Below are positions 13,118 to 32,442 of a DNA stretch of 57,588 nt, in pieces. How positions within the stretch are numbered: the stretch's first letter is position 1; every line of letters starts with the position of its first letter. A program made the position numbers and the translations under genes. The stretch lies in assembly GCA_944388175.1 (NCBI GenBank), contig CALXHR010000011.1, forward strand, positions 1 to 57,588, read 5' to 3'. The stretch comes from an uncultured Gemmiger sp. (lineage in GTDB: Bacteria; Bacillota; Clostridia; Oscillospirales; Ruminococcaceae). Below the pieces are notes generated by a model. That model saw nothing but the letters and a program-made list of their open reading frames with translations, was not told the origin of the DNA and made no database searches.

Positions 13118-13129
13118 GGTGCACCCCCT

Positions 13130-13987: not shown

Positions 13988-14030
13988 AGCGGGGACTCCT
14001 TTTGGGTTCCGGCGCGGGGCCGGGCAGGCA

Positions 14031-14999: not shown

Positions 15000-15034
15000 G
15001 GCAGGCTCCTTGGCGGTTGGTTTGGGGCGGCGGG

Positions 15035-16033: not shown

Positions 16034-16043
16034 GGCGCGCCCC

Positions 16044-17150: not shown

Positions 17151-17156
17151 CGTGGG

Positions 17157-18215: not shown

Positions 18216-18235
18216 GGCTGGTTCCTTTTGGCGGG

Positions 18236-19117
18236 TCATTCCGGCTCGATCTGTTCCAGGCCGTAATGGCGTTTTTGGGGCAGATCCAGCGCGTTGTACC
18301 AGGTGGTAAAATCGCTGTCGGACCACGGCATATAGGTGGTAAAGTGGTGCCGCCACGGGTAGACCGGTTCGCCGGTAAATTTGTTTTTGATGCGGCGCAC
18401 GTCGGAACTGACGCGCCCCGGGTTGCCCACCACGACCGCATAGGCGGGCACCGGCTTGGTGACGATGGCCCCGGCCGCGACCAGCGCGTCCTGGCCGATT
18501 TCCAGCCCGGGCATCACGAGGGCCCCGGTGGCCAAAATGGCGAAGCTGTGCACATGCACGCCGGCAAAATTCCCCGACGGCGGCGTAGGGTCGTTGGTGA
18601 GCACCACATAGGGGAAAATCCACACAAAGTCGTCGACGCGGGAAAGCTGGCCGATGTGCACGTTGCTGTGCAGGCGCACATAATTGCCGATGCGGCAGTT
18701 GCCCTGGATATCGGACAGCGTGCCGACGCTGACATGGTCGCCGATCGTCGTTTTTTCGCGGATGGTGACGTTGTGCCCCGTCTGGAACCCCTGCCCGATG
18801 GTGGAACCGCCGTACAGGATGGTGCCGCTGCGCAGCAGTGCGTGCGCGCCGATGACCAGCGGGTGGTCGTGGCGGGCGTGGTCCCGGTAAAAATCCACCG
18901 GATACTCGCCCAAAATGCAGTTGGCCCCAACCTGGGACCCCGCCCCCAGCGTGACGCCGCCGCGCACGATGGTGTTGCTGTCGACAAAGACGTCGTCGCC
19001 CAGCACGGTGCCATCCTCAATCACGCAATGGTGGCCCAGCGTGACATTTTTGCCCAACACGGCGCCCCGGCCGATGACGCAATGGGCCCCCTGCTGCGCA
19101 GGTTGTCTGTGCTGCAT
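18236..19117 (-). CDS. Left-handed beta-helix (hexapeptide repeat) acyltransferase
   Basis: A 293-aa acyltransferase. From residue about 12 to 225 it is a run of hexapeptide repeats (IGRGAVLGKNVTLGHH, VLGDDVFVDSNTIVRGGVTLG, IGDHVSVGTLSDIQGNCRIG) forming a trimeric left-handed beta-helix. It ends in the typical MPGLEIGQDALVAAGAIVTKPVPAYAVVVGNPGRV, then a roughly 60-residue aromatic-rich extension. Between FdtA- and FdtB-type genes it most likely acetylates the amino group of a dTDP-3-amino-3,6-dideoxyhexose (FdtC/QdtC role). The extension makes it longer than typical FdtC. Start ATG 19117-19115 follows AAGGAG. Confidence 0.85.
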   Translation of the reverse strand: MQHRQPAQQGAHCVIGRGAVLGKNVTLGHHCVIEDGTVLGDDVFVDSNTIVRGGVTLGAGSQVGANCILGEYPVDFYRDHARHDHPLVIGAHALLRSGTILYGGSTIGQGFQTGHNVTIREKTTIGDHVSVGTLSDIQGNCRIGNYVRLHSNVHIGQLSRVDDFVWIFPYVVLTNDPTPPSGNFAGVHVHSFAILATGALVMPGLEIGQDALVAAGAIVTKPVPAYAVVVGNPGRVSSDVRRIKNKFTGEPVYPWRHHFTTYMPWSDSDFTTWYNALDLPQKRHYGLEQIEPE

Positions 19118-19132
19118 GTTGACGCTCCTTCT

Positions 19133-19552
19133 TTACGGCTCTGCCGGGCCGCGTTGCGCCGCCAAAGCCAAAAACGTATCGTAGTCCCGGATATAATCGT
19201 CGGCGTCATAGTAAGAATCCGCCGCCACGCACAGCACCGAATTGTCCTGCTGCCAGAGCATCTCGCGCCACATAAAGTGCTCGACGATCAGGCCCTTGGC
19301 GGGGTCGTCCAGCAGGACCTCGGTCTTTTCGCGCCCGTCGTCCAGGCGGATCAAAATGCTGCCGTAGGGGCACCACAGCAGCTGGCGCAGCGCTTTGTGC
19401 GCATGGCCGCCGCGCTGCACGCCCTGCGGCGCGCCGTAGATGTAGTAGATGCGCTTGACCGCAAACGGCACGTCGCGCCCGGCCTCAAAGACCGAAAGCG
19501 TACCCATGCCCTCGGCCGTGACGCTTTTCATGCGGATGGTTTGGATAATCAT
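19133..19552 (-). CDS. FdtA/QdtA-type dTDP-4-keto-6-deoxyhexose isomerase (WxcM-like cupin)
   Basis: A 139-aa single-domain cupin of the FdtA/WxcM C-terminal family. It should isomerise dTDP-4-keto-6-deoxyglucose to the 3-keto sugar that the aminotransferase uses next. Motifs are GTLSVFEAGRDVPFAVKRIYYIYG, RGGHAHKALRQLLWCPYGS with the two catalytic-type histidines, and GLIVEHFMWREM. Whether the product is the galacto (Fuc3NAc) or gluco (Qui3NAc) isomer cannot be read. ATG 19552-19550 is chosen because AAGAAGGG precedes it and MIIQTIRMK fits the family start. rmlA and rmlB, needed upstream, are not in this window. Confidence 0.85.
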   Translation of the reverse strand: MIIQTIRMKSVTAEGMGTLSVFEAGRDVPFAVKRIYYIYGAPQGVQRGGHAHKALRQLLWCPYGSILIRLDDGREKTEVLLDDPAKGLIVEHFMWREMLWQQDNSVLCVAADSYYDADDYIRDYDTFLALAAQRGPAEP

Positions 19553-19568
19553 GGTTTTTCCCTTCTTT

Positions 19569-21137
19569 TCAGGAGATCCTGACGACGGCTGTACCGTCCA
19601 GTATAGCACAAGAATCGCCGTTGGGGTAGCAGGGCATGGCCTGTACGCGGGGGTCCTGCGCCCAGGCGTCCAGCTGGGCCTGGTCGGCCACAATGTTGGC
19701 CGCGCTGCCCATCACATGCTGGAACCACCATTTGAGGGTGCCGTCGTAGGTGACGGCCGAGGGGACCTGGTGCAGATCGCCCTCCGCATAGCGGCTGAAC
19801 GCCGGGTTGCGGTAGGCAAACGCGGAATCGGTAAAGTCGCCGGCAAAGACGACCGGGGTGACGCCTTCCTCATACCCGGGCAGCTGCCGCACCTGCGCCA
19901 TGACGGTCTCCATCTGGCGGGCCGTCTGATCGTAGACGAGCTGGGTGTACACATACGCCCCGTTGGCGCAGATGACCATGCGCAAAATCCAAAACGCACA
20001 CAGCAGCGCCGTCCCCCAGCCCCACAATGCGCGGGGCGCGGGCTGCGGGGCTGCGCCGGGCGCAGGCCTGCCAAAAAACAGCAGCAGCGGCAGCGCCCAG
20101 ACCAGGAACACGGCGTGCTGCATCAGGATATACACATTGCCGGACGCAAGCAGCCAGATGACGTTGAGCCCCAGCGGCAGCAGCAGCACGGCGATGGCTG
20201 CCTGGGCAGCCGCGCGGACGCCTTTGCCGCGCAGCCGCAGCGCCAACCCCAGCACCGCCAGCCCCAGCGCCAGCGCCGTCGCCACGCGCATGCCGCGGTC
20301 GTTCCAGCCGGAATACCCCAGCAGCGTTGCAAAAAAGTTGCGGTATACCGCCGGGATGCCGGCCAGGATGGCGGCCGGCCCCAGCCGCGCCAGCTGGGCC
20401 AGGCCGTTGCCGGTATCGGCCAGCTGGTAACCGGTAAGCGCCAGCGAGACCTGGACCGAGACAAGGTACAGCCCCGCCCCCAGCGCCAGCGAGAGCAGAT
20501 ACCGCCCGCCCCGCGCCAGCCAGGCGCGCCACGGCGTGCCCGCCAGCGCTTTTTGCAGCAGCACCAGCAAAAACAGGCCCAGCGCAAACTGGATGTACGC
20601 CTGGTACAGCGCCAGGCAGACGCAGAAACAACCTGCCGCGCCGCCCAAAGCCAGCGCCCCGCGCCGCCGCTCGGCGCACCATACGCCGGCGCAGGCCAGC
20701 AGCATCGCCAGCAGGTAGGCGTCGGTCTCGTAGGTATAGGTGGCCAGCATGGCCGTGACACTGGCGCAGCAGGCCAGAACGCCCGTGAGCAACGCCGCCC
20801 CGGCGCGCCGCAGCCGCAGCAGGCGGGCCATGCCATACCCGCTGAGCGCCACATATACGGTGCTGAACGCCCCGATCAGCCACGGCGCGGCCACCTTGCC
20901 GCGCACAAGCGGGAAATACAGGTTTTGCGCCCAGCGGCCCAGCACGTACATCGTCCACTGCGCGTCGAACACCAGCACTGTGCCGTCATGGTTGGGGAAC
21001 AGGTTGGCAAACGCAAACCCGTGCGCCAGCAGCATGCCGGCCAGAGCCGCCAGCGACACGGCGGCCAGCAGCGGCCTGTCGACGCCTTGCAGCGTTTTGC
21101 GCGCCTTTTCTTCGATCTTGTCCAGTATCTGCGTCAT
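19569..21137 (-). CDS. GtrII-like polytopic membrane glycosyltransferase
   Basis: A 522-aa integral membrane protein with about 10-12 spans and an extracytoplasmic C-terminal domain (about residues 390-520). The N-terminal part FANLFPNHDGTVLVFDAQWTMYVLGRWAQ and the following spans fit the GtrII family of GT-C enzymes that add side-branch sugars to a glycan outside the membrane from a polyprenyl-linked donor. A cytoplasmic amphipathic stretch (DKIEEKARKTLQG) precedes the first span. It lies 24 bp after its upstream neighbour and 16 bp before fdtA; start ATG 21137 follows AAGGGG. The donor sugar is unknown. Confidence 0.75.
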   Translation of the reverse strand: MTQILDKIEEKARKTLQGVDRPLLAAVSLAALAGMLLAHGFAFANLFPNHDGTVLVFDAQWTMYVLGRWAQNLYFPLVRGKVAAPWLIGAFSTVYVALSGYGMARLLRLRRAGAALLTGVLACCASVTAMLATYTYETDAYLLAMLLACAGVWCAERRRGALALGGAAGCFCVCLALYQAYIQFALGLFLLVLLQKALAGTPWRAWLARGGRYLLSLALGAGLYLVSVQVSLALTGYQLADTGNGLAQLARLGPAAILAGIPAVYRNFFATLLGYSGWNDRGMRVATALALGLAVLGLALRLRGKGVRAAAQAAIAVLLLPLGLNVIWLLASGNVYILMQHAVFLVWALPLLLFFGRPAPGAAPQPAPRALWGWGTALLCAFWILRMVICANGAYVYTQLVYDQTARQMETVMAQVRQLPGYEEGVTPVVFAGDFTDSAFAYRNPAFSRYAEGDLHQVPSAVTYDGTLKWWFQHVMGSAANIVADQAQLDAWAQDPRVQAMPCYPNGDSCAILDGTAVVRIS

Positions 21138-21160
21138 GCGGGCAGGTTCCCCTTACAGCG

Positions 21161-22120
21161 TTATGCCCCGGCGGTATCGCCGGAGGCTTCGTAAATGGCG
21201 CGCAGGGCGGCCGCGTCGCCGTTTACGGGCGGCTGCCAGGCGCGCTGCGCTTTTTTGAACGGGTGGTTCTGCGGTACGATGCACCGGCCGATCAGCCCGC
21301 GCACCAGGCGGCTTTTGTGCCGGTCGTTGAAAAAATACGCATAGGCTTTGCGCACGGTGGCGTCCTGCGGGTAGAGCGTGCGCAGCAGCTGCACCATGGC
21401 GCGCCACTCAGCCGCCATGCGCTGGCGCGCCGCCGCGTCGGTGGAGACGCCGCCGCCGTACTCGTACCAGCTGGTCAGGCGGTCGTACCGGCGGATGGGC
21501 ACGCCCTGTACGGCGAACAGCCGCACGGCGAAATCCTCGGCCAGGCGCACATGCCCGGCCATCGTTTGCAGCGCCTGGACCAGCAGCGCGCGCTCATACA
21601 CCATGCCGCAGCCGCTGATGCCGTCGTCAAACAGCAGCAGGTTGCGCTTGATGCGCGCGGCGTCGTAGTGGGCGGGGTCGTAGGGCGCGCGGTCAAACGG
21701 CGTTTCGCCGGGGGCAGGCGTCGGCGCGGGCTGCGGCGTGTAGTACGCCTGGCGGGCAAAGGCCACGCGCGGCGCGTCGGCCCGCAGCCGCCCCAGCCAC
21801 CAGGACAGTGTGCCTGCATCGTAGAGGTAGTCCCCCGGCGAGAGCGTCAGCACCCAGCGGGTGGCGGCCTGCTGCGCGGCGTTAAGGACGTTGCGCACCG
21901 TGCCGCCGTTTTGCGCCAGGCGCGCCGTGCCCACGGCCGTGATGCCCTGCGCGGCCAGGTAGGCCGTACTCTGGGCAAAATTGTCCTGCGGGGAGCCGTC
22001 GTCGGCCAGCAGTACCGCGAAGTCGCGGGTGTCCTGCAGGGCCAGCGAGGCCAGCGTGCGCCGCAGCGCCGCCGCATCGGGCCGGTATTGTGCGATAAGC
22101 ACCGTCAGCAGCGTTTCCAT
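21161..22120 (-). CDS. GT2-like glycosyltransferase with altered metal motif
   Basis: A 319-aa protein starting like a GT2 enzyme (LTVLIAQYRPDAAALRRTLASLALQ) with the nucleotide-binding LLADDGSPQDN and NGGTVRNVLNAAQQA. The usual DxD metal motif is replaced: the aligned position reads LTLSPGDYLYDAGTL, so the first Asp is missing. The acceptor region CGMVYERALLVQAL and LAEDFAVRLF is recognisable. The C-terminal part is basic. Start ATG 22120 has GGGGAGGGGG upstream. It could be a working divergent enzyme, use another acidic residue, or have lost activity. Confidence 0.8.
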   Translation of the reverse strand: METLLTVLIAQYRPDAAALRRTLASLALQDTRDFAVLLADDGSPQDNFAQSTAYLAAQGITAVGTARLAQNGGTVRNVLNAAQQAATRWVLTLSPGDYLYDAGTLSWWLGRLRADAPRVAFARQAYYTPQPAPTPAPGETPFDRAPYDPAHYDAARIKRNLLLFDDGISGCGMVYERALLVQALQTMAGHVRLAEDFAVRLFAVQGVPIRRYDRLTSWYEYGGGVSTDAAARQRMAAEWRAMVQLLRTLYPQDATVRKAYAYFFNDRHKSRLVRGLIGRCIVPQNHPFKKAQRAWQPPVNGDAAALRAIYEASGDTAGA

Positions 22121-22154
22121 CGTCGGCCCCCTCCCCTTTCTCGGTTACTCTATT

Positions 22155-23039
22155 TTACTCCATGCGGCCCATTTTGCCGCGCCAGAAATCCAATGCGCCG
22201 CGCCAGGCCCCGTAGCTGCGCCCCTTTTTGCGGCCCAGCAGTTTGGTCAGCGCGTAGCGCGCCGCACCCGCCGCCAGCGGGCCGACGGTTTTGGCGCGCG
22301 CATAGGCTTTGCTTTTGCCCTTGCAGGTCAGGTACAGCGTGTTGCGCGTGATGTAATAGACCGAGAGCATGCCCCCCGCGCTGCCGCCGGCTTTGTGCCA
22401 GATCCTGGCCTGCGGCAAAAACCACAGCGGCACGCCGGCGTCGGCCAGGCGCAGGCAGTAGTCGACATCCTCGCAGTACATGAACAGCGTTTCGTCCAAA
22501 AAGCCGACGCGCTCGATGACGGCGCGCGGCAGCAGCACGCAGCAGAAGGTGATGAAACTGACCTGCTGCGGCTGCGAGAACGCCGGCCCGTCCTTTTGGT
22601 GGCCGCCCAGGTGCTTGACCTTGCCGGTGGCGCGGTCCAATGCGCCGCCGGCGAACCAGATCTCGTCCGGCGGGTCCAGAAACAGCATTTTGGGGCAGCT
22701 GACCGCCCCGGCCGGGGTGTTGGCCAGCAGGTTTTGCAGGAAATCCGGCGCGGCGACGGTGTCGTTGTTGAGCAGCAGCACCCAGTCGCAGCCGTCGGCC
22801 AGCGCGCGGCGGATGCCGACGTTGTTGGCCGCGGCAAAGCCCAGGTTTTGGCTTTGCGGCAAAAACACCGTGTTTGCCGGCAGATGCGCCCCCAGCTGCG
22901 CGACGGAGTCGTTTGTGGACGCATCGTCGAGCAGAATGATCTCAAAGTCCGTAAACGTCTGCTTTTGCAGGCTTTGCAGGCACTGCACGGTGTCCTGCCA
23001 GCCGTTGTAGTTGGAGATGACGATCCCGACTGTTGGCAT
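22155..23039 (-). CDS. GT2 glycosyltransferase, rhamnosyltransferase-like
   Basis: A 294-aa GT2 enzyme of the WbbL/RfbF-like type. Motifs are VGIVISNYNGWQDTVQCLQSL, ILLDDASTNDS, NLGFAAANNVGIRRAL and the metal motif LLLNNDTVAAPDFL, then SFITFCCVLLPRAVIERVGFLDE and MYCEDVDYCLRLADAG. The basic C-terminus may sit on the membrane. The family includes dTDP-rhamnosyl and other dTDP-deoxysugar transferases, which fits the dTDP-sugar genes around it, but the sugar is unproven. Start ATG 23039-23037 follows AAGGAG and comes 2 bp after the fdtB stop, so the two are tightly coupled. Confidence 0.88.
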   Translation of the reverse strand: MPTVGIVISNYNGWQDTVQCLQSLQKQTFTDFEIILLDDASTNDSVAQLGAHLPANTVFLPQSQNLGFAAANNVGIRRALADGCDWVLLLNNDTVAAPDFLQNLLANTPAGAVSCPKMLFLDPPDEIWFAGGALDRATGKVKHLGGHQKDGPAFSQPQQVSFITFCCVLLPRAVIERVGFLDETLFMYCEDVDYCLRLADAGVPLWFLPQARIWHKAGGSAGGMLSVYYITRNTLYLTCKGKSKAYARAKTVGPLAAGAARYALTKLLGRKKGRSYGAWRGALDFWRGKMGRME

Positions 23040-23041
23040 GG

Positions 23042-24160
23042 TTACTCCTTCCACGAATTGACCGCGTCGATGACGGCCTGCACCTGGGCGTCGGTCATGC
23101 CGTAGTACATCGGCAGGCTGAGCTCGGTGGCCGAGATCTCTTCGGCCAGGGGCAGCGCGCCAGGGCCAAGGCCCAGTTCGCGGTAGGCCCCCTGCAGGTG
23201 GATGGGCGTGGGGTAGTGTTTGTTGGTGCCGATGCCGCAGGCGTTGAGGTGCGCTTCCAGCGCGTCGCGCCGGGCGCAGCGCACGGCAAAAATATGGTAG
23301 ACGTGCTCGCACCCTGGCGCCACCGTGGGCAGCGTGACGGCCGGGTTGCAAATGCCGGCGCAGTAGCGCCCGGCAATGCGGCGGCGCTCGGCGTTCATGC
23401 GGTCCAAATGCGGCAGCTTGGCGGCCAGGAAGGCGGCCTGCAATTCGTCCAGGCGGGAGTTCTGGCCCTTGTAGATGTGGTGGTATTTATAGTCGCTGCC
23501 GTAGTTGCCCAGCGCGCGCACCTTTTGGGCCAGGTCGGGGTCGTTGGTGGTCACGCAGCCGGCGTCGCCCAGCGCGCCGAGGTTTTTGCCCGGGTAGAAG
23601 CTGAACGCCGCGGCGTCGCCCAGGCTGCCCGCGCGGCGGCCCTGGAAGGTCGCGCCGTGGGCCTGGGCCGCGTCCTCGATGACTTTGAGGCCATGCGCTT
23701 TGGCGATGGCGTTGATGGCGTCCATCTGCGCGCACTGGCCGTACAGGTGCACGGCAATGATGGCTTTGGTGCGCGGGGTGACGGCGGCCTCGATGCGGGC
23801 GGGGTCGATGTTGTAAGTAGCCAGCAGCGGCTCGACAAACACCGGCGCGGCCCCGGCGTAGCTGACGGCCAGCACGGTGGCGATGAAGGTGTTGGACGGC
23901 ACAATGACCTCGTCCCCCGGGCCGATGCCCATCGCTTTGAGGATAAGCACCAGCGCGTCGAGGCCGTTGCCGCAGCCGACGCAGTGCGCCGCGCCGCAGT
24001 AGCGGGCGAAGGCGGCCTCAAAGGCTTCGTCCTCGCGCCCTTCGATGTACCAGCTGTTTTGCAGCACGCGGTCGAACGCCGCGCGCAGGTCACCGTCGAG
24101 CTCCTTTTCCATCGGGCGGAAAGAGACGAACGGCACCGAAAGTTTTGTCGGTTGGGACAC
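23042..24160 (-). CDS. FdtB/QdtB-type sugar aminotransferase (DegT/DnrJ/EryC1 family)
   Basis: A PLP-dependent sugar aminotransferase (372 aa). It aminates a dTDP-3-keto-6-deoxyhexose with glutamate as donor, the step after FdtA. Family features: [45 protein letters not shown], and the PLP-binding [16 protein letters not shown] with Lys192. The C-terminal [13 protein letters not shown] and [13 protein letters not shown] are typical. The start is most likely GTG 24160-24158, with GAGG about 9 bp upstream and the usual short lead into SVPFVSF; a TTG six bases earlier is less well spaced. First gene of the glycopolymer operon, directly behind its promoter. Confidence 0.9.
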
Positions 24161-24235
24161 AGTCAAACGCCTCGTTTTCTGGTAAAAGTCTGCGCCGCAG
24201 CGCAACGGGCATACCTGCCCAAAATATACCGTCTT

Positions 24236-24264
24236 ATTATACAACGATTTGCCCGCTTTCGCAA
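24236..24264 (-). promoter_or_regulatory. Promoter of the 12-gene glycopolymer operon
   Basis: On the minus strand TTGCGA (24264-24259) and TATAAT (24241-24236) are 17 bp apart, predicting a start near 24229. I see no internal strong terminator between here and 11831, so all twelve genes can be one transcript. Confidence 0.8.
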
Positions 24265-24266
24265 CC

Positions 24267-24323
24267 AAAAAAAGCAGGACGTCCCCCGGCGTGCCGGGTT
24301 TTTTCGACACGCAGGGGGACGCC
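24267..24323 (-). terminator. Composite terminator after the DUF1540 gene
   Basis: On the minus strand GGCGTCCCCC (24323-24314) can pair with GGGGGACGTCC (24287-24277), followed by a T7 run (24273-24267). Inside it, CCCGGC and GCCGGG form an alternative short hairpin with six T on the plus-strand side (24299-24304), so it may also stop plus-strand transcription. It insulates the glycopolymer promoter. Confidence 0.65.
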
Positions 24324-24330
24324 CTCCGGC

Positions 24331-24633
24331 TCAGTTTTGCGCGGCGGCGCGTGTGCGGCACTGGGGGCCGCAGTCGCTGACGTCGATGCTGATATGCGCC
24401 GCGCGGCAGGTGGAACCCGCCAGGTAGCGGCAGCTGCGCTCGGTACAGTGCACGTCGGTCTCGGCCGTGGCGGGGGCGTTGTCGGTGGCGACGTTGCCCA
24501 CGCCCTCGTTGCAGCGGTAGCTGCTGCACACCGCGTCGCCCGGCCCGGCGTGGCGCACCGTAACGCCGCCCAGGCAGCAGCCGCCGGCTTTGTTGTGGCA
24601 GCAGTCGTACTGCGCACAGTCCAGATATGCCAT
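24331..24633 (-). CDS. Cys-rich DUF1540 protein
   Basis: A 100-aa protein with two copies of the short Cys-rich DUF1540 motif: [21 protein letters not shown] at the N-terminus and [21 protein letters not shown] near the C-terminus, followed by DVSDCGPQC. Such small proteins are common in Clostridia, probably bind metal, and have no known function. The open frame extends far upstream through the tRNA genes, but ATG 24633-24631 with GGAGGTG upstream gives the correct family start. Downstream of the tRNA-Gln terminator, so it needs its own promoter; none is clear. Confidence 0.85.
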
Positions 24634-24712
24634 AGGGCAAACACCTCCGCCGCCAGTATGCCCGCAAAACGGGCGGTTATGCAAAGGCGCCCCCACACCG
24701 CGCAGGCTATAC

Positions 24713-24749: not shown

Positions 24750-24824
24750 TGGTTGGGCCGGCCGGATTTGAACCGACGGATGGAGGAGTCAAAGTCCTCT
24801 GCCTTACCGCTTGGCGACGGCCCA
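24750..24824 (-). tRNA. tRNA-Gln (UUG)
   Basis: A full cloverleaf on the minus strand. Acceptor TGGGCCG pairs with CGGCCCA; the D-arm has GCGGTAAGGC, the anticodon loop is CTTTGAC (anticodon TTG), and the T-arm has GGTTCAAATCC. Discriminator A and an encoded CCA follow. Last of three tRNAs in a minus-strand cluster. Confidence 0.96.
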
Positions 24825-24828
24825 GTAA

Positions 24829-24864
24829 AAGAAAAGACCGTGTGGCTGTGCCGGCACGGTCTTT
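24829..24864 (-). terminator. Terminator-like hairpin between tRNA-His and tRNA-Gln
   Basis: AAAGACCGTG and CACGGTCTTT form a perfect 10-bp stem with a 12-nt loop (24833-24864), followed on the minus strand by TCTTTTAC. It sits inside the tRNA cluster, so it is either a partial terminator or a processing/stability element. Confidence 0.6.
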
Positions 24865-24866
24865 GG

Positions 24867-24944
24867 TGGGGTGCCTAGAGGGATTCGAACCCTCGGCCTC
24901 CAGAGCCACAATCTGGCGCGCTAACCAACTGCGCCATAGGCACC
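24867..24944 (-). tRNA. tRNA-His (GUG)
   Basis: A full cloverleaf on the minus strand. Acceptor GTGCCTA pairs with TAGGCAC, with the extra G at -1 opposite C73 that marks tRNA-His. Anticodon loop TTGTGGC gives anticodon GTG. The T-arm is GGGTTCGAATCCC, and CCA is encoded. Confidence 0.96.
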
Positions 24945-24950
24945 ATACAG

Positions 24951-25024
24951 TGCGCCCGAAGGGTCTCGAACCCCCGGCCCACTGCTTAGAAGGCAGTTGC
25001 TCTCTCCAGCTGAGCTACGGGCGC
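24951..25024 (-). tRNA. tRNA-Arg (UCU)
   Basis: A full cloverleaf on the minus strand. Acceptor GCGCCCG pairs with CGGGCGC, the D-arm has TAGCTCAGCTGG, anticodon loop CTTCTAA gives TCT, and the T-arm is GGGGTTCGAGACCC. CCA is not encoded, unlike the other two tRNAs here, so it must be added after transcription. First tRNA behind the cluster promoter. Confidence 0.95.
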
Positions 25025-25118: not shown

Positions 25119-26963
25119 TTAGCATTCGGGCGGCGTTGGGTCCCCAAAGTACAGCCCGTACCACAAAAGAAAGCTGTACACTGCCCAAATTTGGGTCATG
25201 CCCTGCGTGCGGCCGGCGCGGTGCGCTTCCAGCAGTTCGCACAGCGCGTCGGTGTCAAAAAAGCGCGCGGCCGCCGGGCTGGTGAACGCTTCGCGCACCC
25301 GCGTGTAATAGGGTTCCTGCCGCAGCCAGGCCGCCAGCGGTACCGGGAACCCGCGCTTTTTGCGCCGGGCCACGGCGCGCGGCAAACTGCGCGCGGCTGC
25401 GGCGCGCAGCGCCACTTTACCGCGGCGGCGCGTGCAGCGCAACCGGCGCGGCAGCCCCCGCGCCACAGCCCAGACTTCGCGGTCCAAAAACGGCACGCGC
25501 AGTTCGAGACCATGCGCCATGCTCATGCGGTCGGCCTTGCGCAAAATATCATAGGGCAGCCAGGTGTGCAGGTCCACCCACTGCAGCGCCGTCGGCTCGT
25601 CAAGGCCCGCGGCCGCGTCGAACCAGGGCCGGAACCGCCGCGCCGGGTCGGCGGCCGGCGGGTGTTTGAGGTAGCGGTCGCGCTCGGCCGGGGTGGCAAA
25701 CACATAATGGGCCCGCGCGCAGCGCTGCCAGGGTTGCTGCGCGCCGCGCTGCAAAAACCGGCAGCCCGGCAGGCAGCGGGCCAGCGCACGCCGCACCGCG
25801 CGCGGCAGCCTTTGCCAGGCCGCCGCGTGCACGCCCTGGCGGTACAGCGGGTAACCGCCGAAGAGTTCGTCCGCCCCCTCGCCCGAGAGGACAACCTTGA
25901 CTTTTTGCCGCGCGCTGCGGCACAGGAAATACAGCGGCACGGCGGCCGGGTTGGGCATCGGTTCGTCGTGGTACCACTGCACGGCGCGGGCCGCGGCAAA
26001 GAAATCGTCGGCGGTGACCTGCGTCTCGTGCAGGGGCACGCCCAGCGCCGCGGCCGTGGCGCGCGCGGCGTCCAGCTCGGAACAGTCCTGCTCGGCATAG
26101 CCGACCGTGAAGCACTGCAGCCGCGGCTGCTGCTGCGCAGCCTTGCACGCCGTCAGGGCGGAGTCCACCCCACCCGAGAGGAAACACCCGACTTCGACGT
26201 CAGCCAGGCGGTGGGCCGCCACACTGCCGGTAAAGGCCGCGTCGATATCCGCCGCCCACTGTGCCCGCGTGCGACCGGGGCGCGGCGCAAAGCGCAGCTG
26301 CGCAAAGCGGCGGCGCGTCAGGCGGCCGTTTTGCCACAGCAGGCTGTGGCCGGGCAGCAGCTCATACACGCCGGCAAACAGCGTCTCGCCGCCGGGCAGG
26401 TACTCGATGCTCAAAAAATCGGGCAGGGCGGCCGCGTTGAAGCGTTTTTCAAACGCCGGGTGGTCCAAAAACGCCTTGATCTCGCTGGCGAACAGCAGCG
26501 TTTCGCCGCGGCGGTACCAGTACAGCGGTTTGACGCCAAAGGGGTCCCGCGCGCAGAACAGCGTGCCGGCCTGGCGGTCCCACAGCGCAAAGGCGAACAT
26601 GCCGCGCAAGCGGGCGGGCAGGGCGGCGCCCCACTGCTCCCACCCGTGCAGCAGTACTTCGGTATCGCTGTGGGTGGCAAAGATATGCCCGGCGGCCGTC
26701 AGTTCAGCCGTGAGTTCGCGGTAGTTGTAAATTTCGCCGTTGAACACGCACACCAGGCTGCCGTCCTCATTACACATGGGCTGGGCGCCGCCCGCCAGGT
26801 CCACGATGGCCAGCCGCCGGTGCCCCAGCGCGGCGCGGGCGTCGGCAAAAATGCCCTCGCCGTCCGGCCCGCGGTGGGCGATGCGCGCCGTCATGGCCTG
26901 CACGGTGCGCCGCGCGGCGGCCGGGTCCTGCCCGGGCGAGATAAATCCTGCGATCCCACACAT
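25119..26963 (-). CDS. asnB: Glutamine-dependent asparagine synthase family amidotransferase (copy 1)
   Basis: An AsnB-type enzyme (614 aa): N-terminal glutaminase (class II, catalytic Cys2 in MCGIAGF, IAHRGPDG, NGEIYNY) and C-terminal ATP-pyrophosphatase amide-forming domain (CFLSGGVDSAL, about residues 260-267; VVLSGEGADELFGGY; MSMAHGLELRVPFLD). Start ATG 26963-26961 places Cys at position 2; the GTG two codons earlier would bury the nucleophile and sits too close to the GGGGAG. The family makes asparagine but also amidates peptidoglycan (AsnH on D-Asp, LtsA/AsnB on diaminopimelate). Directly downstream of an AslFm-like ligase (27-bp gap), a wall role is plausible. It pairs with a second, inverted copy at 28324-30156. 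Confidence 0.93.
   Translation of the reverse strand: MCGIAGFISPGQDPAAARRTVQAMTARIAHRGPDGEGIFADARAALGHRRLAIVDLAGGAQPMCNEDGSLVCVFNGEIYNYRELTAELTAAGHIFATHSDTEVLLHGWEQWGAALPARLRGMFAFALWDRQAGTLFCARDPFGVKPLYWYRRGETLLFASEIKAFLDHPAFEKRFNAAALPDFLSIEYLPGGETLFAGVYELLPGHSLLWQNGRLTRRRFAQLRFAPRPGRTRAQWAADIDAAFTGSVAAHRLADVEVGCFLSGGVDSALTACKAAQQQPRLQCFTVGYAEQDCSELDAARATAAALGVPLHETQVTADDFFAAARAVQWYHDEPMPNPAAVPLYFLCRSARQKVKVVLSGEGADELFGGYPLYRQGVHAAAWQRLPRAVRRALARCLPGCRFLQRGAQQPWQRCARAHYVFATPAERDRYLKHPPAADPARRFRPWFDAAAGLDEPTALQWVDLHTWLPYDILRKADRMSMAHGLELRVPFLDREVWAVARGLPRRLRCTRRRGKVALRAAAARSLPRAVARRKKRGFPVPLAAWLRQEPYYTRVREAFTSPAAARFFDTDALCELLEAHRAGRTQGMTQIWAVYSFLLWYGLYFGDPTPPEC
26520..26669 (-). repeat. Inverted repeat arm within asnB copy 1
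   Basis: This segment encodes the DTEVLLHGWEQWGAAL to FGVKPLY part of the glutaminase domain. Compared by eye with 28612-28762 on the other strand it is about 85-90% identical, with perfect runs of 17-21 bp (for example CAGTGGGGCGCCGCCCTGC). The arms face each other about 2 kb apart. Confidence 0.8.
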
Positions 26964-26990
26964 CGGCACTCTCCCCTTTCTCTGGTTGCA

Positions 26991-28211
26991 TCACAGCGCG
27001 CCGGCGCGCCACTGCGCCCCCACCTTGCGCCAGTACCCGGCCTGGCGCAGCAAAAACCAGACCCGCCGGGCCGGGCCCTCGCCGTCTGCCAGCAGGTGGC
27101 GGCGGCCGCGCCCGCGGCGGCGCAAAACGGCGGCGCGCTGCAGCGCGGCCCGGCCGGGGCAAAACCGCCGCACGACGCCCCAGGGCGCCGTGTACCACAC
27201 CGCCGGGCGCAGCGCCGGGGCCGCGGGCGGGCGGCCGTCCAGCAGGTCGGCGGCCAGGGGCAGTGCCAGGTTGGCCCCGGCCGCCGTGCACGCGTAGGAC
27301 GAACGCCCCGGGCGGGGGTTCATCTCAAACAGAACGGGTTCGCCGCCCGGTGCGTATTTGAGGTCAAAATTGGCAAAACCGCGCCAGCCGCTTTGTTGCA
27401 GCAGCGCGCGCAGCGCCGCCAGCAGCGCCGCGTCCTGCCGGGCGGGTTCCACCAGCAGCGCCGCGTAGTTACCGGTGCCTTCGGGCGTGCGCTCCTGCAA
27501 CAGCACCTGCGCCTGCACGGCCCAGGCCGCCGTGCCGTCCTGCGCGCAGTAGATATTGACGACGCCAAGGGCAGTGTCCGGCCCGGGGATGTATTCCTGC
27601 ACGAGCCAGCCGCCGCGGTAGCCACCCTGCGCCGCCGCGGCGGCGCAGGCCCCCAGTTGCGCGCGGTCCTGCGCTAGGTATACCTTGCGCTTGCCGGCAA
27701 ACCGGCAGGGCGCATACGCCGCCTGGTCGGCCGGTTTGACGACGGCCGGCCAGCCGAACGGCAATGCTGTGGGCAGCGGCGCGCCGGGCCCCAGCAGGAC
27801 GGTTTGCGGCGTGCGCAGCCCCTGCGCGGCGCAGGCCGCGGCAAAGCCCGGTTTTTGCCCCAGCCGCTGTACCAGCGCCGGCGGCGGGCAGGCAAAGCGG
27901 TAGTGCGCCGCCAGTGCGCTTTGGCAGCGCGCCAGCTGCAGGGCGTAGTCGTCGGCACAGGGCACCAGCAGCCGCGCCTGCCCGGGGAAGGCGCGCGCCA
28001 CCGCCGCCAGCGTGCGCACAAGCACGGCGTCACAGCCCAGATCCTGCCGGCACACCACCGTTTGCAGCAGCCGCGTGGCGGCCAGCGCCGGCAGCGCACG
28101 GCGGCAGACCGCGACGCTGCGCACGCCGAATGCTTCCCAAAAGCTGCGCGCCATGCCGTAGACGTTGGCGTCGCCGCCGAGCAGAACCGGCAAAACCCCA
28201 GGCACAGGCAT
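26991..28211 (-). CDS. ATP-grasp ligase related to D-aspartate ligase AslFm
   Basis: A 406-aa ATP-grasp protein. The N-terminal VLLGGDANVYGMARSFWEAFG, then LVPCADDYALQLARCQSAL, PAVVKPADQAAY, the ATP-grasp core LVQEYIPGPDTALGVVNIYC, GTGNYAALL, GFANFDLKYAPGG and the metal-binding FEMNPRPGRSSYAC all match the AslFm type, which ligates D-Asp to the stem-peptide lysine in Enterococcus faecium. The C-terminal 60 residues are Arg-rich and may bind membrane or wall precursor. Start ATG 28211-28209 has GCGAGG just upstream. First gene of a pair with asnB, mirroring the E. faecium link of D-Asp ligation and amidation. The actual amino acid substrate is inference. Confidence 0.7.
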   Translation of the reverse strand: MPVPGVLPVLLGGDANVYGMARSFWEAFGVRSVAVCRRALPALAATRLLQTVVCRQDLGCDAVLVRTLAAVARAFPGQARLLVPCADDYALQLARCQSALAAHYRFACPPPALVQRLGQKPGFAAACAAQGLRTPQTVLLGPGAPLPTALPFGWPAVVKPADQAAYAPCRFAGKRKVYLAQDRAQLGACAAAAAQGGYRGGWLVQEYIPGPDTALGVVNIYCAQDGTAAWAVQAQVLLQERTPEGTGNYAALLVEPARQDAALLAALRALLQQSGWRGFANFDLKYAPGGEPVLFEMNPRPGRSSYACTAAGANLALPLAADLLDGRPPAAPALRPAVWYTAPWGVVRRFCPGRAALQRAAVLRRRGRGRRHLLADGEGPARRVWFLLRQAGYWRKVGAQWRAGAL

Positions 28212-28323
28212 CCCCCCTCGCCTTAGTGTATGACGAAGGGGGCCGGCTATGCGCCAACGCCCGTGGTTGCCGCGGCGTTTTTGCGCATACTATACGGCAG
28301 TGTGAGGAGAGGAGGGAACGCCC
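28212..28323. promoter_or_regulatory. Divergent promoter region of the two ligase/asnB pairs
   Basis: This 112-bp region drives the AslFm-like-asnB pair leftwards and the asnB-murE pair rightwards. On the plus strand TTGCCG (28267-28272) precedes a CATACTATAC -10 region at about 28286-28295; on the minus strand TACACT (28230-28225) is a possible -10 with a poor -35. AGGAGAGGAGG precedes the plus-strand ATG. Sharing one region suggests co-regulation. Confidence 0.45.
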
Positions 28324-30156
28324 ATGTGCGGGATTGCCGGGTATATCGCCGGGCAGGGCGCGGCCAGCGCCGCCGTATTGCAGGCGATGCTGGCGTGCAT
28401 CGCCCACCGCGGGCCGGACGGCCAGGGCGCGTTTGTGGAAGGCGCGGCTGCGCTGGGGCACCGGCGGCTGGCCGTGATTGACGAGGACTGCGGCCCCCAG
28501 CCGATGGCTAACGAGGACGGCCGCCTGGTGTGCGTATACAACGGCGAAATTTACAACTATCAGGCACTCACCGCCGAGCTGACGGCCGCCGGGCACGCCT
28601 TTGCGACCCGCTGCGACACCGAGGTGCTGCTGCACGGGTGGGAACAGTGGGGCGCCGCCCTGCTGCCGCGGCTGCGCGGGATGTTTGCCTTTGCGTTGTG
28701 GGACCGCGCGGCCGGCACGCTGTTCTGTGCGCGGGACGCGTTTGGCGTCAAACCGCTGTACTACTGCCGCACGGCGGACGGCACACTGCTGTTTGCCAGC
28801 GAAATCAAGGCGTTTTTGGACCACCCGGCCTTTACAAAGCGCCTGAACGAACCGCAGCTGGAACGCTACCTGAGCTGCCAGTACTCGCCGGGGGAGGAGA
28901 CGTTTTTTGCCGGCGTGTACAAACTCCCGCCGGGGCACTGGCTGACGTTTGACGGGCAAACGCTGCGCCGCGGGCGCTGGTGGGCCCCGGTGTTTGCGCC
29001 GGACGCTGCCCCGGATGATGCGCCCGCCGCCCTGGACGAAGCGCTGCGCGGCAGCGTAGCGGCGCACCTGGCGGCCGACGGGCCGGTGGCGGGGTTTCTT
29101 TCGGCAGGGGTAGACTCGGCCTATATCACGGCGCTGGCGCGGCCCAAGCACTGCTATACCGTCGGCTATGCCGAGGGGCGGTACGACGAATCCCCGGCCG
29201 CCGGGCGGCTGGCGGCGGCCCTGGGGGTGCAGGACCATGTTGTGCGCATCACGCCCGAGGCGTTTTGGGCCGCGCTGCCCGCCGTGCAGTACCACATGGA
29301 CGAACCGCTGGCCGACGCGGCCGCCGTGGCGCTGTACCTTTTGTGCTGCGAAGCCGCGCGCGGCGGCAAGGTTGTGCTCTCGGGCGAGGGGGCGGACGAA
29401 TTGTGCGGCGGGTACAACATCTACCGCGAGCCGTTCACCGCCCGCTGGTACGGCCGCCTGCCGGCCGCTTTGCGCCGGGCGCTGGGCGCGCTGGCCGGGC
29501 GGTTGCCGGCGGTGCCCGGCGTCAATTTTATCGCACGGCGCGGCGTACCGCTGGCGCAGCGCTACTACGGCCCCACGGCCCTGCTGGACGAACGTGCCAA
29601 GCGCCGCCTGCTGCGCCGCTATACCGGCGCGGGCGACCCGCGTCTGCTGGCGCGCCCCGTATGGACGGCCAGCGCCGGGCTGGACCCCGTGACCCGCATG
29701 CAGGCCTGCGACCTGGCGCTGTGGCTGCCCGGCGATATTTTGCTGAAAGCCGACAAGATGAGCATGGCGCATGGCCTCGAACTGCGCGTGCCGTTTTTGG
29801 ACCACGCCGTGTGGAACGCCGCCCGCCGCCTGCCCCCGGCCGCCAAGGCCGACGCCCGTCAGACCAAGCGGGCGCTGCGCGCCGCGGCCGCCCGCCGCCT
29901 GCCCGGCGCCGACGCGGCCCGCCCCAAGCGGGGGTTCCCGGTGCCGGTGCGGGACTGGCTGCGGCAGGAGCGCTGGGCCGCCCCCGTGCGCGCGGCGTTT
30001 GACCGCCCGGCGGCCGCACGGTTCTTTTGCGTGCGGCGGCTGCATAGGATGCTACGGCAGCACCTGCGCGGCACGCGCGACAACTGGCGGCAGATTTTTT
30101 GCATCTACTGCTTTTTGGTGTGGTACGAACAATATTTTGAGGGGGATGCGCCATGA
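28324..30156 (+). CDS. asnB: Glutamine-dependent asparagine synthase family amidotransferase (copy 2)
   Basis: A second AsnB-type enzyme (610 aa), close to copy 1 in its glutaminase half: MCGIAGY with Cys2, IAHRGPDGQG, NGEIYNYQALTAELTAAGH. The ATP-pyrophosphatase loop reads GFLSAGVDSAY (about residue 260), with Ala where the family and copy 1 have Gly (SGGVDS). VVLSGEGADELCGGY and MSMAHGLELRVPFLD are intact. The synthetase half differs much more from copy 1, so acceptors probably differ. The stop overlaps the start of the murE-like gene by ATGA, so the two are translationally coupled, pointing to amidation of a peptidoglycan precursor rather than free asparagine synthesis. Confidence 0.92.
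   Translation: MCGIAGYIAGQGAASAAVLQAMLACIAHRGPDGQGAFVEGAAALGHRRLAVIDEDCGPQPMANEDGRLVCVYNGEIYNYQALTAELTAAGHAFATRCDTEVLLHGWEQWGAALLPRLRGMFAFALWDRAAGTLFCARDAFGVKPLYYCRTADGTLLFASEIKAFLDHPAFTKRLNEPQLERYLSCQYSPGEETFFAGVYKLPPGHWLTFDGQTLRRGRWWAPVFAPDAAPDDAPAALDEALRGSVAAHLAADGPVAGFLSAGVDSAYITALARPKHCYTVGYAEGRYDESPAAGRLAAALGVQDHVVRITPEAFWAALPAVQYHMDEPLADAAAVALYLLCCEAARGGKVVLSGEGADELCGGYNIYREPFTARWYGRLPAALRRALGALAGRLPAVPGVNFIARRGVPLAQRYYGPTALLDERAKRRLLRRYTGAGDPRLLARPVWTASAGLDPVTRMQACDLALWLPGDILLKADKMSMAHGLELRVPFLDHAVWNAARRLPPAAKADARQTKRALRAAAARRLPGADAARPKRGFPVPVRDWLRQERWAAPVRAAFDRPAAARFFCVRRLHRMLRQHLRGTRDNWRQIFCIYCFLVWYEQYFEGDAP
28612..28762 (+). repeat. Inverted repeat arm within asnB copy 2
   Basis: Partner of 26520-26669 in inverted orientation, about 85-90% identical by eye. 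Recombination between the arms would invert the segment carrying the 5' parts of both asnB genes and the AslFm-like gene. Confidence 0.8.
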
Positions 30157-31634
30157 AGCTGTGCGAACTTTTGCCGGCGGCGGGCGGTGTGCTGTTGCAG
30201 GGCGACCCGCGCGCCGAGGTGCGGGCGCTGTGCTGTGATTCCCGCGCGGTGACGCCGGGTGCGCTGTTCGTCTGCCTGCCGGGGCGGCATGCCGACGGGC
30301 ACAATTTTGCGGCGGCCGCCGTGCGCGCCGGGGCCATGGGTGTTGTGTGCGAGCACCCGGTGCCCGGCCTGCCGCCGGGGACGCCGGCGGCGCAGGTACC
30401 GCACGCGCGCGCGGCGCTGGCGCAGCTGGCCTGCCGTTTGTACGGCGACCCCGCGCGCCGCATGACGATGATCGGCGTGACCGGCACCAAAGGCAAAACG
30501 ACGGTGGCCTGGCTGCTGGCCGCCATGCTGGCAGCGGCCGGGCGCAAGGCCGGCGTGCTGGGCACCAACGGCGCGCAGTGGCCGGGGCACCGTGTGCCGC
30601 TGCCCCGCACAACGCCCGAGAGCAGCGACCTGCAGGCGCTGCTGCGGCGCATGGCCGACGACGGCTGCGACGCCTGCGTGATGGAAGTTTCCAGCCTGGG
30701 GCTGCAGCAGCACCGCGTCGACGGCATTTTGTTTGACATCGGCATCTTTACCAACCTTTCGCCCGACCACATCGGCCCCGGCGAACACGCCGACTTTGCC
30801 GAGTACCTGGCCTGCAAGAGCGAACTGTTCCGCCGCTGCCGTGTCGGCGTCGTCAACGCCGACGACCCCCACGCCGCGGCCGTGCTGGTGCGCCACACCT
30901 GCCGCGTGGTGCGCTACGGCGTGCAGAACTCGGCCGCCTGGCGCGCTTTGCCCGGCTGGCAGCCGCGGCGCGCGCCCGGCTTTTTGGGCGTGGATTTTAC
31001 CGCCGTGACCCCTGCCGGGCAGGCGCTGCGCTGCCGCGTGGGCATGCCGGGGCGCTACAGCGTGTACAACGCGCTGGCCGCGCTGGCCGCCGCCGGCGTG
31101 CTGGACCTGCCGCACACCGCCATGCAAACCGGGCTACAAAGTTGCGTGGTGCGCGGCCGCACCGAGGTGGTGCCGCTGAACGCGCCGTTTACCGTGGTGC
31201 TGGACTACGCCCACAACGCCGCGGCGGCCCAAAGCGTGCTGCGCGCGCTGCGCGCCTGCCGCCCGGCGCGGCTGGTGGCGCTGTTTGGCTGCGGGGGCGG
31301 GCGCAGCCGGGTGCGCCGCTTTGGCATGGGCGAAGCCTGCGCCCGCCTGGCCGACGCCTGCATCGTGACCGAGGACAACAGCCGCGGCGAGCCGCTAGAC
31401 GCCATCTGGGCCGATATCCGCGCCGGTATGCGGCGCGGCGGCCCGGGGACGCCCTGCGTGCTGATTGCCGACCGGCGCAAGGCACTGTACTACGCGCTGG
31501 GCCACGCCCGCCCCGGCGATATCCTTGCCGTGCTGGGCAAAGGGCACGAGACGACGCTGCAGCGCGGGGCCGAGACCCTGCCCTTTGACGAGCGGGAGAT
31601 CATCCAGACCTACATGCGCGAAAAACAGGCATAA
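30153..31634 (+). CDS. MurE-like UDP-MurNAc-dipeptide ligase
   Basis: A Mur ligase (493 aa) of the MurE type, which adds the third residue to UDP-MurNAc-L-Ala-D-Glu. The uridine-binding N-terminus has CCDSRAVTPGALFVCLPG; the ATP loop is GVTGTKGKTT (about 108-117); TTPESSDLQ, EVSSLGLQQHR and the lysine normally carbamylated (LACKSELF, Lys222) are present. The substrate motif that is DNPR in diaminopimelate-adding enzymes reads DNSR (about 408-411), and the GCGGDRDxxKRPxMG block reads GCGGGRSRVRRFGMG. It may be a specialised paralogue. It overlaps asnB copy 2 by 4 bp; a hairpin at 31640 ends the unit. Whether a standard murE exists elsewhere is unknown. Confidence 0.88.
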   Translation: MKLCELLPAAGGVLLQGDPRAEVRALCCDSRAVTPGALFVCLPGRHADGHNFAAAAVRAGAMGVVCEHPVPGLPPGTPAAQVPHARAALAQLACRLYGDPARRMTMIGVTGTKGKTTVAWLLAAMLAAAGRKAGVLGTNGAQWPGHRVPLPRTTPESSDLQALLRRMADDGCDACVMEVSSLGLQQHRVDGILFDIGIFTNLSPDHIGPGEHADFAEYLACKSELFRRCRVGVVNADDPHAAAVLVRHTCRVVRYGVQNSAAWRALPGWQPRRAPGFLGVDFTAVTPAGQALRCRVGMPGRYSVYNALAALAAAGVLDLPHTAMQTGLQSCVVRGRTEVVPLNAPFTVVLDYAHNAAAAQSVLRALRACRPARLVALFGCGGGRSRVRRFGMGEACARLADACIVTEDNSRGEPLDAIWADIRAGMRRGGPGTPCVLIADRRKALYYALGHARPGDILAVLGKGHETTLQRGAETLPFDEREIIQTYMREKQA

Positions 31635-31639
31635 CAAAG

Positions 31640-31672
31640 CCGCGCCGCCCTGTGCCAAACAGGGCGGCGCGG
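31640..31672. terminator. Hairpin between the convergent murE-like gene and rsuA
   Basis: CCGCGCCGCCCTG (31640-31652) and CAGGGCGGCGCGG (31660-31672) form a 13-bp perfect stem with a 7-nt loop, followed by AAATTTTG on the plus strand. T-tracts are short on both sides but the position between convergent genes supports termination both ways. Confidence 0.7.
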
Positions 31673-31725
31673 AAATTTTGTATGAAGTTCTGTATGTTTT
31701 TTGCTCTGCGGGCGCGCGGCGCGCG

Positions 31726-32442
31726 TCACCGCCCGCTTTGCAACGCCGTCAGCTCCGTCTGCGTCAGTTCCCGGTACTGGCCGGGGGCCAGCGCGGGGTC
31801 CAGCGCCACGCCGCCGATGCTTTCGCGGTGCAGCGCGTTGACGCCCGCGCCAAAGACGCCGAACATCCGCTTGATCTGGTGGTAGACGCCCTGGCGCAGC
31901 GTCACGCGCACCGTGCAGGGGTCTGCCCCGGCCGGTTCGACCCGGGCGGGGGCCAGCGTCTGGCCGTCGGCCAGCGTGACGCCCGCCGCAAACCCGGCGC
32001 GCATTTCCGGCGTCAGCGGCGTGTCCAGCGTGACAAGGTAGACTTTTTCGACATGGTGCGTCGGCGCAAGCAGGTCGTGCGCCAGCGCGCCGTCGTCGGT
32101 CAGCAGCACAAAGCCGGTGCTGGTTTTGTCTAGCCGGCCGGCCGGGAACAGCTGCCGCCGGGGGTAGGCGGCGGCCACCAGGTCCGCCACGGTGGTGTCG
32201 CGTTTGTCCCGGCTGGCGCTGACGACGCCCGCCGGTTTGTTGAGCATGATGTAGACGTATTTCTGGTACGCCCCCGCCAGCGGCGCGCCGTCCAGCGCCA
32301 GGGCGGCGGTTTCGTCCACCTGCGCGTCGGCCTGTTTGCACACGGCCCCCGCCACCGCCACGCGGCCTTTGGCGATGGCTTTGCGGCTTTCGCTGCGGGT
32401 CATGCCGGTGCGCGCGGCCAGCAGTTTGTCCAGCCGCATCAT
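31726..32442 (-). CDS. rsuA: RsuA-family 16S rRNA pseudouridine synthase
   Basis: A 238-aa pseudouridine synthase of the RsuA/RluB/E/F group, probably modifying 16S rRNA. It has an N-terminal S4 domain (MRLDKLLAARTGMTRSESRKAI) and the catalytic LFPAGRLDKTSTGFVLLT with the conserved Asp, then EKVYLVTL and QGVYHQIKRMFGVFG. Start ATG 32442-32440 overlaps the ybaK stop (ATGA), and AGGAG lies upstream. Cotranscribed with ybaK. Confidence 0.93.
   Translation of the reverse strand: MMRLDKLLAARTGMTRSESRKAIAKGRVAVAGAVCKQADAQVDETAALALDGAPLAGAYQKYVYIMLNKPAGVVSASRDKRDTTVADLVAAAYPRRQLFPAGRLDKTSTGFVLLTDDGALAHDLLAPTHHVEKVYLVTLDTPLTPEMRAGFAAGVTLADGQTLAPARVEPAGADPCTVRVTLRQGVYHQIKRMFGVFGAGVNALHRESIGGVALDPALAPGQYRELTQTELTALQSGR

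Follow-up and report, generated by a model that had tools for sequence, protein, structure and literature searches.

A divergent locus of an uncultured Gemmiger sp. with an Asl-family ligase, two AsnB amidotransferases and an arginine-type MurE, a candidate for peptidoglycan-precursor modification

Introduction

Some of the closest known systems come from lactic acid bacteria (LAB). In Lactococcus lactis AslA, RacD and AsnH form one system, and in Lactobacillus plantarum asnB1 lies with murE and serves the amidation of meso-diaminopimelic acid (mDAP), asl and asnH being absent; among the four LAB reviewed, the mDAP species carries no asl, the reviewed species possess MurT and the tested Asl enzymes act on lysine (PMC4155827, cited for its statements on these genes). 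Walls of the A4gamma type that are based on mDAP were known only from Dermabacteraceae, according to a 2013 paper (PMC4062624). Here we describe a locus in a stretch of 57,588 nucleotides (the window) on contig CALXHR010000011.1 of an uncultured Gemmiger sp., whose assembly has 1.75 Mb in 14 contigs and is 69% complete. The locus encodes an ATP-grasp ligase, two AsnB-type amidotransferases and a MurE.

We consider it likely that this is a peptidoglycan-precursor locus, as an earlier model-made annotation (the first-pass annotation) had proposed, and that it derives from an operon of the Oscillospirales. MurE would add the third, diamino residue, most probably mDAP, to UDP-N-acetylmuramic acid-L-Ala-D-Glu, and AsnB2, probably translationally coupled to MurE, would amidate the residue thus added. 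The Asl-family ligase (Asl) would activate D-Asp, or another D-dicarboxylic acid, for linkage to the amine in the side chain of the third residue; AsnB1, encoded behind Asl on the same strand, would amidate the added D-Asp. The D-Asp itself would be supplied by an aspartate racemase encoded elsewhere, and the ancestor of the locus would be the operon AsnB2-Asl-racemase-AsnB1. We infer every substrate, the order of the reactions, the cross-bridge and the wall type of the host from sequence.

The locus can be set against the known systems as follows. It shares with the LAB set AslA-RacD-AsnH, which makes an L-Lys-D-Asp/D-Asn bridge, a ligase of the same family (by tree), an AsnB partner and, in the genomes of 34 of 34 genus relatives, an aspartate racemase; it differs in that the racemase lies outside the locus, an arginine-type MurE lies within it, there are two AsnBs and MurT is missing. 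The asnB1-murE pair of L. plantarum is alike in gene arrangement, i.e. an AsnB adjoins MurE, and the MurE of the window is of the arginine type, but the window places an Asl and another AsnB next to this pair as well. Dermabacteraceae are alike in the predicted wall only (mDAP with a D-dicarboxylic bridge); they are Actinobacteria, and the likeness drawn here is one of wall type. Finally, clusters with AsnB, MurE, Asl and racemase were found in Pediococcus and Vagococcus (L246, L250; L209, L226, L228, L240). These also hold AsnB, MurE and Asl in one cluster; they differ by a single AsnB, a racemase inside, a MurE with the motif DDPG and one common gene direction.

The first-pass annotation knew of no description of a combined locus; a lack of precedent is not supported in view of these clusters and of the asnB1-murE pair of L. 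plantarum, and AsnH, which the annotation had ascribed to Enterococcus faecium, is credited to L. lactis in the review (PMC4155827). In other words, the kind of locus is already known, and it is for the variant, i.e. arginine-type MurE, Asl and two AsnBs with a Lys-like overlay in relatives, that no description was found: searches of the open-access literature listed no account of this combination, nothing beyond the LAB review for D-aspartate ligase together with peptidoglycan and diaminopimelic, and no wall-type value for Gemmiger, Subdoligranulum or Faecalibacterium.

Layout and conservation of the locus

The list of open reading frames (ORFs) of the window contains four intact ORFs in the order AsnB1, ATP-grasp ligase, AsnB2, MurE, arranged as two divergent pairs:

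25119..26963, minus strand: AsnB1, glutamine-dependent amidotransferase (TIGR01536 496 bits, AsnB tree)
26991..28211, minus strand: Asl-family ATP-grasp ligase, diverged clade-A type (tree, model, retained residues)
28212..28323, no strand: divergent gap of 112 bases separating both gene pairs (sequence)
28324..30156, plus strand: AsnB2, glutamine-dependent amidotransferase (TIGR01536 464 bits, AsnB tree, MurE pairing)
30153..30156, plus strand: ATGA overlap of AsnB2 stop and MurE start, 4 bp (ORF coordinates)
30153..31634, plus strand: MurE, UDP-MurNAc-tripeptide synthetase, motif DNSR (NF001126, TIGR01085, motif)

The order and the 4-bp overlap agree with those originally given. Translational coupling of AsnB2 and MurE through the ATGA overlap is likely. 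The AsnB1 ORF extends to a GTG at 26969 (listed 25119-26969), and its start appears better placed at 26963, two codons inside, where the protein would begin with MCGI and thus have an N-terminal Cys. A GGAGG-type ribosome site precedes AsnB2 within the gap, in which a consensus scan revealed no promoter-like site. The ratio of nonsynonymous to synonymous substitution rates (dN/dS) of the locus genes was 0.10-0.34 within the group (five genome pairs).

The arrangement exceeds what chance would give: the matches place the four genes next to each other in 29 of the 35 genus genomes, host included, although among these the AsnB1 of G015 is cut at a contig end and the MurE match of G032 is in two pieces. 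The exceptions are G001 (pieces on separate small contigs), G023 (AsnB1 lost at a contig end), G030 (AsnB2-MurE only), G017 and G028 (MurE only) and G025 (none).

The ATP-grasp ligase as a member of the Asl family

By its place in the tree, the ATP-grasp protein of the window is inside the D-aspartate-ligase (Asl) family. The tree has 75 rows (15 of 29 genus proteins, 33 of 80 named loci and 3 of 13 proteins of the second gene set described below) and, like all trees in this work, is of a quick type computed without bootstrap. Starred branches (98-100) join the ligase to Asl proteins of Oscillospirales, and the next proteins joined, again by starred branches, are those of Lysinibacillus, Viridibacillus, Ureibacillus and Planomicrobium. 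Asl family membership is assigned by the tree and not by the profile libraries: the AslFm-type assignment of the first-pass annotation stands as regards the family, whereas the signatures it had invoked are not shown by those libraries.

Several other routes to a name were tried. Pfam gave only ATPgrasp_Ter at 25.9 bits, below the cut-off of 29.1, and NCBIfam gave no match above cut-off. The three Asl proteins tried from Pediococcus, Enterococcus and Lysinibacillus matched no Pfam family whatever (3/3). A sequence search of the PDB returned weak VanA/Ddl matches only. The structural model (predicted local distance difference test score 92.8) has an ATP-grasp fold, and the structure search retrieved this generic fold without singling out Asl; its top rows were a carbamoyl-phosphate-synthase-like protein, PurK and PylC, and no solved Asl structure was among the matches listed. 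PylC of the pyrrolysine pathway has the same fold as the ligase (14% identity), and its PDB titles name bound lysine and a lysine-Ne-D-ornithine product. It joins D-ornithine to the side-chain amine of lysine; it differs in acting on free lysine, not on a wall precursor. In the invariant alignment columns the window ligase keeps the ATP-grasp-type Lys, Asp, Glu, Asn and Arg, whose catalytic roles we assume to be those of other ATP-grasp enzymes.

The genomic neighbourhoods of the family point the same way. Named genomes were scanned with an alignment built from 27 relatives, and the best 80 of 582 loci were kept. These include Enterococcus avium, E. malodoratus, Vagococcus, Pediococcus, Ligilactobacillus and Lysinibacillus sphaericus as well as Viridibacillus, Ureibacillus, Planococcus, Sporosarcina and Bhargavaea, bacteria which we take to have L-Lys-D-Asp or L-Lys-D-Glu bridges. 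Some of these 80 loci lie on short stretches; within about 5 kb, 58 of them had an Asp/Glu racemase, AsnB genes were seen at 39, MurE genes at 14 and genes of Fem-type enzymes at 6. The neighbours that were tried in Pfam were confirmed (racemase 4/4, FemAB 1/1). Tree and neighbours together support the view that the locus serves wall precursors and encodes a ligase of the Asl family.

The two AsnB amidotransferases and the origin of the locus

AsnB1 and AsnB2 are both above the TIGR01536 cut-off, and both have the N-terminal Cys as well as glutaminase and synthetase domains. The TTIR segment of Escherichia coli AsnB (1ct9), in which we take the aspartate-binding D and R to lie, is absent from both in the alignment. 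Absence of these two residues is the criterion that separates amidotransferases from asparagine synthetases according to PMC8554201.

The relatives of the AsnBs include lasso-peptide cyclases, with scores below cut-off, and no specific profile names the ATP-grasp protein. Both facts would suit a non-wall ligase or natural-product locus, in which MurE and AsnB had been recruited to a secondary peptide. We regard this as very improbable, given that the neighbours of the Asl family are racemase, MurE and FemAB, and that well-assembled relatives lacking the second set have no strong MurE match other than the MurE of the locus, which makes it the enzyme expected to serve their wall.

In the AsnB tree, ten AsnB1 rows from four-gene loci form one clade (100, starred) within a starred 99 clade that also holds 13 AsnB1 rows of Asl operons. 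Likewise, 11 four-gene AsnB2 rows form one clade (100, starred) within a starred 98 clade with seven operon AsnB2 rows. Judged by these branches, AsnB1 is the orthologue of the AsnB that lies downstream in the Oscillospirales Asl operon, and AsnB2 of the one that lies upstream; both are thus old members of an Asl operon. The order AsnB2-Asl-racemase-AsnB1 is found in Anaeromassilibacillus senegalensis An867, Neglecta and other Oscillospirales (L199, L215, L218, L225, L227, L321), and many other related loci have Asl-racemase-AsnB1 only. This operon has orthologous AsnBs and the nearest Asl outside the four-gene lineage; unlike the locus, it encloses the racemase, shows no murE in the stretches seen and is not divergent. 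Given the AsnB orthology, the locus looks like the operon rearranged, minus racemase and plus murE. The Gemmiger/Fournierella lineage seems to have opened up the operon, with loss of the racemase from it, inversion of AsnB2 and murE now behind AsnB2. Twenty further Asl stretches of the family were inspected: five (L311-L315) contain all four genes in the same order, L310 has three before its contig breaks off, Asl-racemase-AsnB1 is present in six (L316-L321), and the layouts of the remaining eight differ.

The distribution of the two AsnBs suggests a division of labour. In Asl-negative genomes with the same MurE lineage, AsnB2 stood beside MurE in 7 of 11 stretches, some of them short, and MurE was without AsnB2 in the other four; neither Asl nor AsnB1 was seen in any of the 11. 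Conversely, AsnB1-type matches were absent from all four genus genomes that lack Asl (G017, G025, G028 and G030, 82-87% complete). AsnB2 is thus kept with MurE and AsnB1 is lost with Asl, which supports the action of AsnB2 with MurE and of AsnB1 with Asl and fits the original idea of one amidotransferase per ligase. One 17.9-kb contig (L401, G358:C19) carries two inverted AsnB2-MurE copies with equal MurE scores, which is perhaps an assembly artefact.

MurE and the third residue

MurE has the three Mur ligase domains and a sufficient family score (404 bits in NF001126, cut-off 373, and 404 bits in TIGR01085). It is the single MurE above cut-off in the host's incomplete assembly and lies on the housekeeping-MurE side of the tree (support 94, no star). 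The clade-B genomes G008, G012, G014 and G031 (98-99% complete) also have a single strong MurE match, the next being absent or at an E value of 1e-24 or weaker. Hence murE does not appear as the dedicated extra partner that the first-pass annotation had seen in it. That annotation had also held that a sole murE without synteny would speak against its proposal; a sole copy is indeed what is seen in the host assembly, but synteny is strong (29/35).

The arginine in the DNPR motif of the E. coli MurE binds the carboxylate of mDAP. The strict DNPR motif is absent from the window MurE, which reads DNSR, i.e. the arginine is kept and the proline replaced. Four-gene MurEs have DNSR in the window's clade (clade A) and DNNR in the rest, with the arginine in all of the best 30 genus rows, a count that includes the host and leaves aside G001, G008, G010 and G032; the MurE of G008, read in L133, is also DNNR. 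The MurEs adjacent to Asl in LAB and other Clostridia have DDPG, DNPD, DNPG, EDPG and similar motifs that have lost the arginine, with one exception (L166, EDPR). Some Asl-adjacent MurE ORFs in Clostridia (L144, L153, L168) are unusually long, at about 780-830 residues, and are possible fusions.

The arginine by itself does not follow Asl. Among 32 Asl-positive rows of the family (30 genomes, G356 and G381 contributing two each) there were 17 DNPR, 12 DNNR, one DNPG, one DNPA and one cut by a contig end, and 32 Asl-negative rows had 21 DNPR, eight DNNR, two DNSR and one DSNR; these rows are best matches plus chosen picks, not a random sample. The motif correlation alone was therefore rejected as a means of telling mDAP from Lys use, the arginine being common in both row sets. 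It is a different matter that in 15 other Asl-positive family genomes (nine genera) the single detected MurE is plain DNPR, even though in many genomes only part of the first-look MurE candidates was scored, so that a distant second MurE may be missed. This suggests that Asl probably operates in bacteria having an mDAP-type MurE. Together with the arginine kept in the window, it predicts an mDAP-D-Asp (A4gamma) wall.

The main competitor of this prediction is an ordinary Lys-type A4alpha wall, in which MurE uses L-Lys (or L-Orn) in spite of its arginine and Asl makes an L-Lys-D-Asp bridge, one AsnB amidating the D-Asp and the other the D-Glu in place of MurT/GatD. MurT_C was found in none of the 35 genus genomes, and in 4 of the 61 genomes searched; another enzyme would thus be needed for D-Glu amidation, if D-Glu is amidated at all. 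This absence, the use of Lys by the Asl enzymes that have been tested and the DNSR/DNNR motif instead of plain DNPR all favour the Lys-type wall. Nevertheless we think it unlikely, since DNNR and DNSR occur in Asl-negative rows too, Asl-adjacent MurEs elsewhere have, L166 apart, lost the arginine that the window MurE kept, and the 15 genomes with plain DNPR stand against it.

If Asl does work on mDAP, the pattern of the four reviewed LAB, in which the mDAP species has no asl, fails in these gut commensals. In taxonomy the type of wall counts as a stable character, and it governs how bacteria are seen by host sensors, lysozyme and the wall-binding enzymes of phages.

A second gene set in related genomes

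A second set, the trio AsnB3-Asl2-MurE2, is present in 13 of the 34 genus relatives, the closest included, and in the same order in all 13:

Trio genomes: G001, G004, G006, G011, G013, G016, G018, G019, G020, G022, G026, G027, G034 (loci L139-L141, L406-L415)

MurE2 has the arginine-less motif DNPD in 13 of 13, and the trio proteins, represented in the trees by three of the 13 sets, cluster with those of other Clostridia and separately from the four-gene proteins. All 12 clade-A relatives carry the trio, and the one further carrier is G011, whose Asl takes a position between clade A and the remaining proteins. The host's own assembly yielded no trio; G019, whose Asl, AsnB2 and MurE are 96-98% identical to those of the window, carries it.

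It is conspicuous that the four-gene copies are more variable than their trio counterparts. In 66 pairs among 12 genomes (G001, having no whole MurE, was excluded), which share branches and are not independent, the median identity was 66.8% for the four-gene Asl versus 87.3% for Asl2 and 67.9% for the four-gene MurE versus 83.3% for MurE2. The four-gene copy was the less similar one in 66/66 pairs for Asl and 65/66 for MurE, with median divergence ratios of 2.59 and 1.71, respectively. Where the trio is absent, the median identities of the four-gene proteins are higher, 82% for Asl (16 rows) and 80% for MurE (17 rows).

These figures make it a serious possibility, though we would put it a little short of even, that the trio took over the wall pathway in the window's clade and that the old Asl and MurE now produce a modified peptide that is either minor or of another kind. 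The spread of the trio, with constant order and constant DNPD, and the faster divergence of the four-gene copies speak for such a takeover, as does the better conservation where the trio is missing. On the other hand, the trio is lacking in the incomplete host assembly, and a dN/dS of 0.11-0.34 within clade A indicates that the four-gene copies are still constrained. Moreover, the pattern is that of a single clade and hence of a single event. An IlvC control gave 90-99% identity to members of both groups, with a ranking independent of the groups, although several matches were partial and there were none in G003, G011 and G017; IlvC thus does not sort the genomes into two groups, and gene exchange between lineages is possible.

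Returning to the proposed peptidoglycan-precursor pathway, the Lys-like trio in all other clade members examined and the divergence of the locus mean that the substrates of Asl may have shifted. We tentatively suggest, as a rather doubtful extension, that Oscillospirales with an arginine-type MurE and Asl build an mDAP-D-Asp/D-Asn (A4gamma) wall and that a full Lys-type set was later acquired by the window's clade, which would then be in the middle of a switch of wall type. Two opposed stem-peptide chemistries would in that case coexist in these gut commensals. At all events, the 13 relatives that have both sets are natural material on how a bacterium changes an essential polymer.

Observations that weigh against the proposed pathway

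Some further observations count against the pathway proposed for the locus. The trees contain none of AslFm, AslA, AsnH, LtsA and L. plantarum AsnB1 and no non-Asl ATP-grasp outgroups, and the locus proteins have no direct tie to any tested enzyme. The PDB match 4bub is a Lys-using MurE that likewise has an arginine at this position, so the arginine is not proof of mDAP.

The Asl of clade A is itself altered. In 121 other Asl sequences (a set that includes near-copies) 76 columns show conservation of 90% or more; clade A as a whole has replaced 12 of these, and 10 more are mixed within it. The changes include Y124A (Y in 121/121 others), E239Q and K293V. The window Asl may consequently have lost D-Asp use, which lowers the D-Asp claim for the window but not for its clade-B relatives. 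One TAG was noted inside the Asl match of two clade-A genomes (G006:C40:76387-77568 and G027:C65:96973-98166), and this would fit a weaker constraint on the locus.

A TIGR00035 aspartate racemase is above cut-off in 34 of 34 genus relatives, always outside the locus (e.g. G004:C1:1032380-1033036), but was not found in the host's 69% complete assembly, from which the second, weaker racemase match of the relatives, probably a glutamate racemase, is likewise missing. The racemase is also present in the four Asl-less genus genomes; it does not track Asl and may have a use of its own. That it serves the Asl pathway is what we infer for the genus, and it may be the operon's racemase gene in a new place.

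Features around the locus

One further feature follows the stop codon of murE:

31640..31672, plus strand: 14-bp hairpin past the murE stop, terminator-like on both strands (sequence scan)

The hairpin sits between murE and a convergent pseudouridine synthase gene. The guanine-plus-cytosine content of 71-72% at 26001-32000 is the maximum of the window and coincides with the fast-evolving locus. A surface-glycan cluster adjoins the locus at 11834-24667 on the minus strand, with an ABC-2 transporter, three GT2 glycosyltransferases, GtrII, FdtA, a hexapeptide acyltransferase and a DegT aminotransferase; it is followed by three transfer RNA genes at 24750-25024. Within this cluster lies another ATP-grasp protein, which is TupA-like (PF14305; 16047-17150, minus strand).

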